Below are positions 11,141 through 57,565 of a DNA stretch of 64,000 nt, piece by piece. Under the pieces are notes generated by a model. It searched no databases, had not been told where the DNA came from, and saw only the letters and a list, made by a program, of their open reading frames with translations. Each line of letters opens with the position of its first letter. Within the stretch, counting starts at the first letter, position 1. Source of the DNA: Hymenobacter aranciens (GTDB lineage Bacteria > Bacteroidota > Bacteroidia > Cytophagales > Hymenobacteraceae). The translations under genes and the position numbers were made by a program. The DNA is taken from positions 1-64,000 of the forward strand of contig NZ_JAUQSY010000012.1 of the NCBI RefSeq assembly GCF_030580865.1. Direction: 5' to 3'.

Positions 11141-11388
11141 GCGAGGATAGGGGAGAAGCGTGCTATCCAAGGCCAGGAAAAGGAGGAGGCGGGGCCCCAC
11201 CCCAGAGGGCGGAACTCGCTGACACCGATGGGGCAGAAGTAGCTGAATGGAGCTAAGCGCAGCCCGTGGCGTGGGCCCGGCGGGCCCGTATAGGGGGTTA
11301 AACGTGATGCAAGATAAGTCGTTCCAAATGCCCGAAAGTTGTGGGCCGGCGCGGCCGCCTCCCCGGCCCTGGCCCTCTATCTGCGGAC

Positions 11389-11590
11389 AGCACCCGAAAC
11401 GCCGCCGACAGCACCCGCAACGCTGCGGAAGTAGCCGAAAAACGCGGAACAGTGCCCGCAACGGGCGGGACAGCGCCCACAATGCCCTGGGCAGTGCCCT
11501 AAACCAACGGGACAGTGCCCGAAACGCCGCCGACAGTGGCCGAAACAGCTGGAACAGTGTCCGAAACGCCTCTGGCAGCACTCCCAACGA
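11389..11590. repeat. Degenerate 21-bp period array 1
   Basis: About ten imperfect units begin at 11389, 11410, 11431, 11451, 11472, 11493, 11514, 11535, 11556 and 11577; every step is 21 bases except one of 20. The rough consensus begins AGTGCCCGAAACG and the second half of each unit varies. The 530-base gap between the desaturase and the next gene holds this array, about 250 GC-rich bases with no visible feature (11141-11388), and a short leader (11591-11670). Because 21 is three times seven, both strands read as heptad peptides (for example SARNAAD), which I regard as incidental. Confidence 0.85.
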
Positions 11591-11670
11591 AAAAATATAC
11601 CGGACTACCGCCAAAAAACAGGACCAATCAAAAATTATTTCTACCTTTCAGCACCTTAACTCTTTCTGCC

Positions 11671-12372
11671 ATGAAAAATAACCGCCTCGACGCCTACCAC
11701 CGGCGCGACACCGCCACCACCGCCGGCCTCGACGCCGACAAAAAGAACTACGAGCCCATCGAAGAGGACATTGCCCCCCTCCGTGAGCAGCTCGCCACCA
11801 ACCACGCCAACGCCGATAAGCTCATCGACGAGGTGCTGAAGGCCGACAGCGAAGACTCGGCCGAAGTGAAAACCAAAACCAAAGGCCTGCTGCTGCCCCT
11901 GCTCAACCGACTCTCGGCCGGCCTCCAGGCCTTCGCCGAAAGCAAAGCCAACGATGACGAAGACCTGCTGCCCCGCGTGACCCTGGGCAGCGACGCCCTC
12001 CGCAAAGCCGACGAAGACTCCTTCGTGCGCCTGGCCACCGGCCTGCTTGCCGAAGCCGACAAAGTACCCGCCGCCCAGCTCACCAAGCGCGAGTTCCTGC
12101 CCGCCGACCTCGCCGAGGCCAAGCGCCTGCTCCAGCGCTTCGCCGGCCGCCTCACCCCCGGCCGCCTCGCCGACGTGGAGGGCAAAAGCACCCGCGAAAT
12201 CCTCTCCGACCTGCTGGCCGCCAACCAGCAGCTCATCAAAAAAATCCGCAAGCAGCTGTTGCCCTACAAAAACTCCCCCACCAAGCACGACGTGTGGTTG
12301 CGGTTTCAGGGGTATTCGAAGGTGGTGCTGCGCACCGGCGGGTCGGCTAAAAGTGGGTCGGGCGCTGCCTAG
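11671..12372 (+). CDS. Hypothetical helical protein (array-associated, copy 1)
   Basis: A 233-residue soluble protein of unknown function, without signal peptide or membrane segment. It is rich in Ala, Leu, Lys, Asp and Glu and predicted almost fully helical, with a basic C-terminus containing QLIKKIRKQLLPYK and a final VWLRFQGYSKVVLRTGG. It follows a degenerate 21-bp array, as does the hypothetical gene at 36985, which has a similar size and helical make-up, so the two may be distant relatives (inference). Diverged copies of its 3' end occur at 14991-15120 and 16931-17005. The ATG at 11671 is preferred because the upstream in-frame codons read the repeat array. The stop codon overlaps the promoter element of the next gene. 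Confidence 0.75.
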   Translation: MKNNRLDAYHRRDTATTAGLDADKKNYEPIEEDIAPLREQLATNHANADKLIDEVLKADSEDSAEVKTKTKGLLLPLLNRLSAGLQAFAESKANDDEDLLPRVTLGSDALRKADEDSFVRLATGLLAEADKVPAAQLTKREFLPADLAEAKRLLQRFAGRLTPGRLADVEGKSTREILSDLLAANQQLIKKIRKQLLPYKNSPTKHDVWLRFQGYSKVVLRTGGSAKSGSGAA

Positions 12373-14902: not shown

Positions 14903-14990
14903 GGCAGGAGCGGACAGCTGGATAATTACGACCGCTGTACGTGGCCCCATGGCCGGGGTTAGCTAAGAATTGTTTGTTGCCTGAAACATG

Positions 14991-15120
14991 CAACCAGCAG
15001 CTCATCAAAAAAAACGCTAGCAGTTGCTGCTCTACAAAGGCTCAGCTACCCGGCACGAAGTGTAGCTGCAGTTTCACGGGTATTCGAAAGTGTGCTGCGC
15101 ACGGGCGGCAGGGGCAAAGG
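14991..15120 (+). pseudogene. Diverged remnant of the 3' end of the 11671-12372 gene
   Basis: The segment aligns with 12222-12355: CAACCAGCAGCTCATCAAAA at its start, GGTATTCGAA in the middle and GCTGCGCAC followed by GGCGG near the end, in the same order and spacing. Several indels and stop codons destroy the frame. As in the first copy, it is followed at once by the promoter and start of an FG-GAP gene, showing that the duplicated unit ran from the 3' end of the helical gene through the FG-GAP gene. Confidence 0.8.
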
Positions 15121-16907: not shown

Positions 16908-16930
16908 GAGCGCCTCGCTAAAATCTCAGT

Positions 16931-17005
16931 CGCCCGGCACAGCGTGTGGCTGCGCTTTCATAGGTATTCGAAGGTGGTGCTGCGCACCGGCGGCAGGGGG
17001 CAAAG
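16931..17005 (+). pseudogene. Third remnant of the 3' end of the 11671-12372 gene
   Basis: The segment matches the last part of the helical gene again: GTGTGGCTGCGCTTTCA against GTGTGGTTGCGGTTTCA, then GGTATTCGAAGGTGGTGCTG and CGCACCGGCGG. It follows the second FG-GAP gene directly but is not followed by a third one. It therefore marks the right border of the tandem duplication. Confidence 0.8.
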
Positions 17006-17047
17006 CCAGAAGAGGCCAAGCCTGACGCGTAGCGTTTGAACCTATGA

Positions 17048-36653: not shown

Positions 36654-36692
36654 CATCAGGTCCCTGGTGCCGTAGAAAGTCGGAAAAGTGCT

Positions 36693-36818
36693 ATCAAACG
36701 CCGGGAAAGTGCTCCCGCTGACCGTTTCATGTCACCCGCTGAGCGTTTGAAAGCTCCCGGTGGGCCATCGAAACCACCCGCTATTCTTGCGTAAGCTCCC
36801 GCTGGGGGCGGGATAATG
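36693..36818. repeat. Degenerate 21-bp period array 2
   Basis: Units beginning CCCGCT or a close variant start at 36714, 36735, 36756, 36777 and 36798, exactly 21 bases apart, and at least one older unit precedes them (36693). The reverse strand contains GCACTTTCCCGGCGTTT, which resembles the reverse strand of array 1 (GCACTGTCCCG then GTTT), so the two arrays are probably related. The 331-base gap 36654-36984 contains this array and then about 165 bases leading to the next gene with no clear feature. Confidence 0.8.
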
Positions 36819-36984
36819 GCCGCTAGGCCTTTACGACCTGCCGGCGCCAGTTTGATGGCTACCGGCCGGCCTTTGGGCCGGGGGTGGTGAAAAATGAAAA
36901 CAACTCCCTATATTCGGCCCGTGCTTCGAGTGAAGTGCTAGCCCCTAGGGGGTTGTGTCTTTCTTTTTTTACTGGATTGTAGTC

Positions 36985-37665
36985 ATGCGTGAGGTTCCGA
37001 TTGTTGCCGATTTTAACATGTCGCAAAGCGACCTGGTCACGGTTAGTTTCGAAAAGCAGCTTTTCATGGTGCGTGATGCAAAAGAGCTGGAGGGGCGCGG
37101 CATCCCGCTCAAGCGCATCACCGATTTTAAAGGCCAGATTACCGATTTCACCGCGCTGCCCACCGACGGCGAGCTCGACCAAACCAAGCAGGAGGCTACC
37201 GACCGCAAGGACGCCGCGCAGCGCGACCTCATCACCCAGCTGCAAATCGTGATGGGCATCGTGGGCACCGTCGACAAGCCCAGCACCTCGGGCTACAAGA
37301 AGTTTGGCACCGCCGGCCTCGACAACGCCAGCGAGGGCGACCTACACCTCGGCATCATCCGCGCCGTGCGCGTGGGCCGCGCCAGCCTGGACAAGTACGC
37401 CGCCAAAGGCCTCACCGCCGACCTGCTTACCGAGCTCGAAACCCGCAACGCCACCTTCCTCACCCGCCTCGGCGAGCAGCAGGACGCCGAAACCGCCCGC
37501 GGCGAGGCCGCCGATGCCCGCATCCGGGCCGCCAACGCCCTCTACGCCGAGCTGATGGACATCTGCGGCACCGGCAAGGCGCTGTATGCGCAGACCAATG
37601 CCCGGAAATTTGACGATTATATTGTGAATGACACCGAGCCGGCGGATGTGAAGCCGGAGGCGTAG
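36985..37665 (+). CDS. Hypothetical helical protein (array-associated, copy 2)
   Basis: A 226-residue soluble protein of unknown function, without signal peptide or membrane segment, predicted mostly helical with a four-helix-bundle look: TKQEATDRKDAAQRDLIT near 67, LITQLQIVMGIVGTV near 82, GIIRAVRVGRASLDKYAA near 125 and DARIRAANALYAELMDICG near 180. Size, composition and location after a 21-bp array parallel the gene at 11671, though the sequence similarity by eye is weak. The ATG at 36985 was chosen over one ten codons upstream because the upstream codons are T-rich and non-coding in character. Confidence 0.72.
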   Translation: MREVPIVADFNMSQSDLVTVSFEKQLFMVRDAKELEGRGIPLKRITDFKGQITDFTALPTDGELDQTKQEATDRKDAAQRDLITQLQIVMGIVGTVDKPSTSGYKKFGTAGLDNASEGDLHLGIIRAVRVGRASLDKYAAKGLTADLLTELETRNATFLTRLGEQQDAETARGEAADARIRAANALYAELMDICGTGKALYAQTNARKFDDYIVNDTEPADVKPEA

Positions 37666-57241: not shown

Positions 57242-57341
57242 GTGCTGACAAGAATTAGGTAAGCCAACGCAAAATACAGTTGACTGCTGGTTTACGCTGC
57301 CTTACCCACCACCTCCCACCCCTGCCGGCAGCTTCGCACGC

Positions 57342-57565
57342 CTTGCGCTCGCTTCCCTGGCCCTTGCCGCCGCCGACTCACACCTTGCCGTCGCCTCCGC
57401 ACCCCTTGCCGGCTTCATTCCACGCCTTGCGTCGGCTTCCGCCCCCCTTGCCACCGATGATTCACCCCTCATTGGCGTTTATCCACGGCTTGCCAAGGCT
57501 TCCTCATGCCTTGCCGCCGGCAATCCACGGCTTGCCGGCGCTTTTTCACGACTTGTTGCCAATAT
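57342..57565. repeat. Degenerate 21-bp period array 3
   Basis: The CTTG core recurs exactly every 21 bases at 57342, 57363, 57384, 57405, 57426, 57447, 57468 (as CTCA), 57489, 57510, 57531 and 57552, eleven units with no drift. The rough unit is CACGCCTTGCCG followed by nine variable bases. It fills much of the 499-base gap 57242-57740. After it, 57566-57740 contains a stretch that looks like coding sequence but has no start or complete frame. All frames read as heptad peptides because 21 is divisible by three. Confidence 0.88.

Follow-up and report, generated by a model that had tools for sequence, protein, structure and literature searches.

Arrays of 21-bp direct repeats precede genes of a putative superfamily of helical proteins in Bacteroidota

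Two repeat arrays and two helical-protein genes in the window

The window, i.e. the whole stretch of 64,000 nucleotides of Hymenobacter aranciens DNA that was analysed, contains two genes for predicted helical proteins, each of which is preceded by an array of degenerate direct repeats. The features of the two loci are listed here in order of position.

11382 to 11591 (about), forward strand: array 1, about 10 degenerate 21-bp direct units
11671 to 12372, forward strand: gene for a 233-aa protein of subfamily A4, placed by profile links in the same superfamily as the 226-aa protein
14979 to 15119, forward strand: relic, a decayed C-terminal piece of an A4 gene (E = 5.3e-5, three internal stops)
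16926 to 17012, forward strand: relic, a second C-terminal piece of an A4 gene (E = 2.4e-4; placed at 16920-17006 with E = 5.4e-5 in another search)
36676 to 36864 (about), forward strand: array 2, a row of about nine degenerate 21-bp direct units in one register, with the best part at 36693-36818 and limits set by eye
36909 to 36916, forward strand: TATATTCG, between array 2 and the gene, fitting only the looser motif TAnnTT[TC][GC]
36985 to 37665, forward strand: gene for a 226-aa protein of subfamily A3, all-helical with two similar halves according to AlphaFold2 and profiles

Array 2 has a lag-21 match of 0.63 compared with a shuffle mean of 0.37, a value that was equaled in none of 1000 dinucleotide shuffles. 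When any lag between 12 and 45 was allowed, none of 300 shuffles equaled the observed periodicity. TRF reports a 21-bp period at 36711-36759, and re-reading of the sequence confirms the hexamers (CCCGCT or CCCGGT) that an earlier note on this DNA had placed at 36714, 36735, 36756, 36777 and 36798, with a spacing of exactly 21. Array 1 is stronger, with a lag-21 match of 0.68 that was again equaled in none of 1000 shuffles. Both lie close upstream of the helical-protein genes, as the note had described; the distance to the start codon is ~120 bp from array 2 to the 226-aa ORF, and ~80 bp from array 1 to the 233-aa ORF. The same note held the units of the two arrays to be related, and this was not borne out. 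With every phase and both orientations aligned the similarity has z = 0.89 and p = 0.17. The unit of array 2 is instead like those upstream of genes that encode relatives of its protein in other species, i.e. L026 (z = 3.3), L023 (z = 3.3) and L025 (z = 2.1); L022 was left out of this comparison as its array is below the cut.

The sequence TAnnTTTG is the −7 element of Bacteroidota promoters. We take TATATTCG, lying between array 2 and the gene, to resemble this element.

Some other features of the window may be recorded. Between 11671 and 17012 the 233-aa gene is followed by a gene that by eye is FG-GAP/VCBS-like, and a second similar gene is flanked by the C-terminal A4 relics, one before and one after it. 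The arrangement is one that the duplication of a block could have left. At 57341-57490 there is a weak 21/42-bp array (0.57) with no adjoining family gene, and positions 1-147 hold two 7-bp tandem repeats, both perfect, namely TGGGTAT x11 and GAACACC x8.6.

Association of the arrays with the protein family

The whole of the organism's own genome (G000, 6.02 Mb) was searched, the profile matches being paralogues of both window proteins. The five paralogues checked first all have an upstream 20/21-bp array, two of them weak (0.52-0.55), and the units are all different. An unbiased scan for arrays covered 864 kb of this genome, comprising the window and 800 kb of stretches. It yielded 32 clusters at ≥0.62, with a best lag of 21 in 20 of them and of 19, 20, 22 or 23 in none; the remaining 12 have lags of 14, 18, 24, 28, 30 and 36. 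A few of the 20 lag-21 clusters are 7-bp repeats or lie inside genes. Rescoring by the shortest strong period gave 21 in 19 of 36 clusters and 41/42 in five of the 36.

According to the earlier note, an array paired with a helical protein would be hard to put down to chance if the combination recurred across the genome. It does recur. Among the called genes of the 864 kb an array is found at a threshold of 0.52 for nine of 10 family matches compared with 34 of the 572 remaining genes (p = 2.7e-10 by Fisher's test), and at 0.58 for seven of 10 compared with 20 of 572 (p = 2.2e-8). The single family match without an array is an 83-aa piece, and at least three of the 20 non-family genes at 0.58 adjoin the array of a family gene. 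The genome also has 21-bp arrays without a family gene, some between convergent genes, and others preceding genes that by eye are S46-peptidase-like, SDR and MGMT-like. The C23 array (L095:15814-16069, ~94.6-94.9 kb) carries the array 2 unit, with 88% identity over 67 bp (E = 1.3e-17), and lies between convergent genes with no adjoining family gene. It is possibly a site acting in trans, or a relic.

The pairing extends to relatives in other families, orders and classes of the phylum. An array with a best lag of 20/21 at ≥0.52 lies within 650 bp upstream of 97 of 112 full-length relatives (79 of 112 at 0.58), where the 112 are the loci fetched by the searches, largely the best match of each genome and not all matches. 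In the downstream control an array was found for six of 110 relatives at 0.52 and two of 110 at 0.58. The best lag is 20 or 21 at 103 of the 112 loci. The 112 do not include five loci that had been retrieved twice, two loci containing masked bases, or a number of weak or duplicated ones such as L005, L148, L152, L154, L169 and L178. L141, L142 and L143, which come from another collection, appear to duplicate L024, L021 and L025, and the upstream regions of L022 and L024 are 98% alike. Fragments were counted apart, and four of 15 have an array. The 15 full-length relatives without an array by this criterion are L045, L055, L121, L122, L123, L126, L127, L129, L130, L144, L158, L159, L165, L167 and L172; on allowing lags up to 45, lag 42 was found at 0.59 in L144 and at 0.56 in L122. 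Among further paralogues 21 is the best of the periods 19-23 in 19 of 20, the twentieth being cut by a contig end.

Array strength varies between groups. Most of the arrays found before relatives in the order's other taxonomic families are weaker (about 0.5-0.65), and of two Chitinophagaceae MAGs with an array one is strong (0.90) and one weak. Strong arrays are present in other classes, in G305 (0.98), G388 (0.93), G456 (0.93) and G437, which has nine. In G305 the loci L172 and L182 are 96% identical; one has a strong 21-bp array and the other none within 900 bp. Three control genomes were scanned over 400 kb each. In G012, of the same genus, there are five arrays, and the sole 21-bp array precedes its family gene. 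In G104 two of four arrays have a 21-bp repeat, one before a non-family gene and one within a coding region. G284, where the A3 search found no member, has six arrays and none of 21 bp. Taking these data together, the association of the array with the protein family is all but certain.

The helical proteins

Comparison of the subfamily profiles gives E = 2.7e-17 for A4 with A5, 4e-7 for A3 with A5 and 9e-6 for A3 with A4. The latter two links are partial matches of helical regions, and hence weaker than that of A4 with A5. On these profile comparisons the array-associated proteins are judged to be one distant superfamily of Bacteroidota, with a core of ~230 aa. The earlier note had allowed that the two window proteins might be unrelated, and other members without arrays. 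Neither is the case, given the links between A3, A4 and A5 and the arrays before their members.

The AlphaFold2 model of the 226-aa protein contains helices only (pLDDT 88.5, pTM 0.71, 7 sequences), and the profiles of its N- and C-terminal halves match with E = 1.6e-6. The build of two similar halves is, as judged from sequence, a property of the branch to which this protein belongs. Prediction for the 233-aa protein alone gave pLDDT 41.5, and it was left out of the structural reading. Isoelectric points range from 4.6 to 9.7 and are below 6 in 57 of 116 proteins; the value for the 226-aa window protein is 4.9.

No curated family in Pfam, NCBIfam, PHROGs or PADLOC matches the helical part above the cut-off, where a cut-off is shown. 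The best Pfam E-value among 28 A3 members is 0.005, with the cut-offs not shown. The 226-aa protein matches nothing in PHROGs or PADLOC, and the same scan of the 233-aa protein gave Cas3b at E = 0.012. A fold search with the AlphaFold2 model of the 226-aa protein returned no PDB match with E ≤ 0.001; on a second look the best match was LemA with Z = 10.7, a level that chance could produce for helical bundles. The model has no recognised DNA-binding fold. Two single-protein scans of viral contigs, of low sensitivity, found no relatives, and the 226-aa protein has no match among plasmid or phage records. We take the superfamily to be new; it is named by no family library searched.

At E = 0.001, profile searches find subfamilies A1 and A2 in 36 and 35 respectively of 101 genomes of the genus. 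A5 occurs, at E = 1e-4, in 14 of 194 genomes sampled from the order; for A3 the count is 15 of 296 sampled from the phylum (E = 1e-5). Nine of these A3 genomes are labelled 'same phylum', and therefore belong to other classes. By eye, L157, L160, L163, L171, L181 and L182, all from other classes, have C-terminal extensions resembling Fn3/Ig domains and lack an evident signal peptide. Pfam has no match to this extension; L181 and L160 give weak PHROG major-tail matches, and one PHROG match (E = 1.4e-4) is to the terminal part of a major tail protein.

Anatomy of the repeat unit

TRF finds up to 14 units per array, often 8-12, and at most loci the array ends ~60-200 bp before the start codon. 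The unit is 21 bp in length, sometimes 20. Conservation of the columns was analysed in 51 arrays, the result of dereplicating 92, with identity restricted to 0.54-0.93. It has a rhythm of 10.5 bp, with z = 7.0 for six units (50 arrays), 8.6 for eight units (43 arrays) and 5.3 for four units (46 arrays), and one of 21 bp with z = 6.4, 5.0 and 4.3 respectively. In neutral simulations of arrays, with and without indels, the 10.5-bp harmonic is near zero. A 3-bp rhythm of conservation is absent (z = −2.2, −1.9 and −1.3 for six, eight and four units). Base content also varies at 10.5 bp for A (z = 4.9), T (z = 3.9) and purine (z = 3.7), and the rhythm of G+C content lies at 5.25 bp (z = 5.1), not 10.5 bp.

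Three other characters were sought in the unit and rejected. A palindromic or hairpin unit, as in REP/BIME elements or hairpin RNAs, would be expected to score as a palindrome; over 55 arrays of identity ≥0.55 the mean palindrome z is 0.08, with one above 3. RNA folding of 51 arrays on both strands gives a mean z of about −0.6, although 18-20% are below −2, and a reading in terms of RNA structure was not adopted. A motif common to all the arrays has an EM score of 2762 compared with 2232 (sd 66) after permutation of columns, but 2692 (sd 46) after random flipping, and the test of orientation is weak (p = 0.018).

The promoter element TAnnTTTG occurs in the last 130 bp before 11 of 90 relatives compared with 2.7 in local shuffles, and the looser TAnnTT[TC][GC] before 26 of 90 compared with 13.2. 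In 13 close pairs of loci, the gaps correspond to whole units in four, there is no gap in five, and gaps have other lengths in four. Turnover of the arrays by gain and loss of whole units is suggested.

Unit spelling and protein divergence

The units are specific to the locus, and their similarity tracks the identity of the proteins. With z > 3 counted as alike, pairs from different genomes have like units in 20 of 23 cases where the proteins are 80-100% identical, in 32 of 44 at 70-80%, 18 of 58 at 60-70%, five of 15 at 55-60% and three of 26 at 50-55%. Below 50% identity this falls to 42 of 815. Of the pairs with similar units, those at ≥50% identity agree in orientation in 79 of 80 cases; for those below 50% the figure is 30 of 42.

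G437 has nine paralogues with nine different units, the pairs listed having 41-71% identity and the lower ones not being printed. At 40-70% identity, units are common to none of 29 same-genome pairs compared with 29 of 144 different-genome pairs (p = 0.005), but 24 of the 29 come from G437 and the pairs are not independent. Between 50 and 70% identity the numbers are none of 11 and 26 of 99 (p = 0.06). Above 70% identity, both of the two same-genome pairs have common units.

A model for the function of the arrays

A fixed step of two helical turns, conservation at 10.5 bp and a location before the promoter are the pattern expected if proteins bind at a row of sites along the same face of the DNA. 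The units of the array are probably binding sites for protein at the level of the DNA. In the model that we propose, a family gene would sit behind a dedicated cis-acting array, upstream of the gene's promoter, in which each direct unit of 21 bp (sometimes 20 bp) corresponds to two turns of B-DNA and as many as 14 units may follow one another. Each unit would present two conserved contact blocks ~10.5 bp apart, and with this spacing the bound molecules would stack on one helix face. They would thereby form a regular complex that sets the transcription of the gene. Each lineage of genes would keep its own unit spelling, diverging together with the protein, with the helical phase retained. We infer that binding to the array controls transcription of the gene. 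We would give the model as a whole an even chance of being correct.

Several observations count against it. The array test fails for 15 of the 112 relatives, and TAnnTTTG precedes only 11 of 90. G305 has near-identical copies of which one has no array, and the own genome has arrays without a family gene. The G+C rhythm is 5.25 bp, and gain or loss of whole units fits only four of 13 close pairs.

The gene's own product is the most likely binder, since its gene is the only one constantly adjoining the array and the unit diverges in step with the protein; the gene would then be autoregulated. There are two similar halves in the 226-aa protein, and likewise in the unit. Yet another protein may bind the array, since no DNA-binding fold is recognised in the AlphaFold2 model and about half of the family's proteins are acidic. 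Binding by the gene's own product is thus offered tentatively, with the balance tilted somewhat against it. The idea could be carried further, to a phylum-wide system of protein-DNA addressing. Each protein would recognise only its own array, with nine or more separate pairs per genome and copies such as the C23 array as targets in trans, and the two similar halves of the protein would read the two helical turns, a pair per molecule. This is speculative and on balance doubtful.

The association across classes, with the spelling free and the helical phase fixed, points to selection on the geometry of the DNA, and to a protein-DNA partnership that none of the libraries of families searched covers. 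Should each array be read by the product of its own gene, the many paralogous pairs would offer a natural set for following the divergence of DNA specificity. Should the reader be some other protein, that protein may recognise a periodic shape rather than a sequence.

Relation to known systems and alternative explanations

The nearest known kinds are iterons, LytTR operators, RemA sites and BrickBuilt MITEs. Plasmid iterons with their Rep proteins, and centromere arrays of the ParR/parC type, are rows of direct units that share a helix face and adjoin the gene whose product binds them. The arrays described here are likewise tandem direct units, beside the gene for a putative binder. They differ in being multi-copy and chromosomal, and among their neighbours no gene for replication or partition was seen to recur; nor is a winged-helix or ribbon fold recognised in the family. 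Rep families are absent from the Pfam listing, and the fold search gives helical bundles, which are compatible with various families.

In the accessible portions of the LytTR literature the sites are repeats mostly 12 bp apart, with a minority at 11 or 13, in which sequence conservation is low while spacing and the place upstream of the promoter are conserved (PMC6193735), and BlpR sites are described as imperfect tandem repeats of 19-21 bp with two blocks of ~10 bp each (PMC6560143). As far as these portions go, the operators of HdrR/BrsR, ComE and BlpR resemble our arrays in being non-palindromic direct repeats with a step of ~19-22 bp before a promoter, and in retaining the spacing while the sequence of the unit varies; they are unlike them in having two repeats where the arrays have a long row (PMC6193735, PMC6560143). 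RemA of Bacillus is, in the excerpted account, a protein forming octameric rings and lacking a classical DNA-binding motif, which binds, ahead of promoters, direct repeats that are periodic and poorly conserved (PMC8481266). That is comparable with the present case, but the RemA sites of that account are AT-rich and 7 bp long with 3-bp gaps, as against units of 21 bp (PMC8481266). The BrickBuilt minisatellite MITEs of Porphyromonas gingivalis have, in the part of the report consulted, a 23-nt unit with one consensus, and terminal inverted repeats (PMC4596501). Like our arrays they are short tandem intergenic units of variable number in a Bacteroidota genome. Here, in contrast, there is no single consensus, and the units of most paralogues fail to match; the same part of that report mentions no link to one gene family (PMC4596501). 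No description of the present arrays was recognised in open-access PMC full text, a scope outside which lie most subscription journals and preprints.

The arrays could be operators read by a regulator from another locus, for instance a response regulator of the LytTR type, for which 9 bp and 12 bp would add up to 21 bp. The step is the same as that of LytTR and BlpR sites in the sources seen in part (PMC6193735, PMC6560143), there are 19 LytTR matches in the own genome and at least one in 10 of 11 other family-bearing genomes tested, and in G404 a LytTR gene lies ~0.9 kb downstream of a family gene. However, none of the 19 LytTR places in the own genome adjoins a family gene, the nearest pair being ~8 kb apart. 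There are two LytTR genes in G437, which has at least nine different arrays, and one each in G456 and G466. No LytTR family is among the Pfam families listed for the scanned family members. In G388 (completeness 100), where two arrays (0.92-0.93) are present, the search gave no match to LytTR, which is therefore rejected as the general binder if that genome is complete. We consider a regulator from elsewhere to be unlikely. A structural role is another alternative, in which the protein would coat its own and other arrays as at a centromere or iteron, for anchoring, segregation or condensation, with control of the promoter secondary. The C23 array, which carries the array 2 unit with no family gene adjoining, would agree with this, as would the locus-specific units and the lack of common units in same-genome pairs at 40-70% identity. 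That contrast draws 24 of its 29 same-genome pairs from one genome, and at 50-70% it has p = 0.06. Moreover the neighbourhood of the loci shows no recurrent gene for a motor or partner; of the 25 largest neighbour clusters within ~1.5 kb, those beyond the family and shadow frames are common only to orthologous loci. The family is chromosomal and multi-copy, and the window protein has no plasmid or phage match. We regard a mainly structural site as distinctly improbable.

The arrays might also be ordinary minisatellites that arose by slippage, the number of units tuning a contingency gene with no specific binder. Whole-unit differences in four of 13 close orthologue pairs would fit, and so would the 7-bp repeats and the 21-bp arrays at other genes of the own genome. 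But slippage fixes no single period, and it would not account for a lag of 21 in 20 of 32 clusters with none at 19, 20, 22 or 23, nor for six arrays with no 21-bp example among them in G284. The 10.5-bp rhythm is moreover absent from the neutral simulations. Slippage without a binder is likewise distinctly improbable. Finally, 21 bp is seven codons and some 21-bp arrays do lie inside genes (L076, L078 and L240), so the array could encode heptad repeats, or it could act as RNA, with fold z below −2 in 18-20% of 51 arrays. Coding heptads are rejected on the absence of a 3-bp rhythm of conservation, and some units are 20 bp long; the mean fold z near −0.6 on both strands and the lack of a palindrome signal argue against RNA. 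Either role is very improbable. The reading that we prefer remains a one-face array of protein sites before the promoter of the family gene.

Other 21-bp arrays

A number of further arrays were noted in passing. In G104, L232:16922-17279 is a strong 21-bp array with units that end in TCAG, ~295 bp before a non-family gene for a 223-aa lipoprotein-like product. The arrays at L095:9304-9581 and L109:12471-12730 lie at different genes and by eye have one common unit, GAGTGGTGYCGGACCACTYC, with palindromic arms ACCACT/AGTGGT. A 21-bp array at L071:8871-9177 lies before a 326-aa gene whose product, missed by every family profile, is by eye apparently helical; it is perhaps a further branch of the family.
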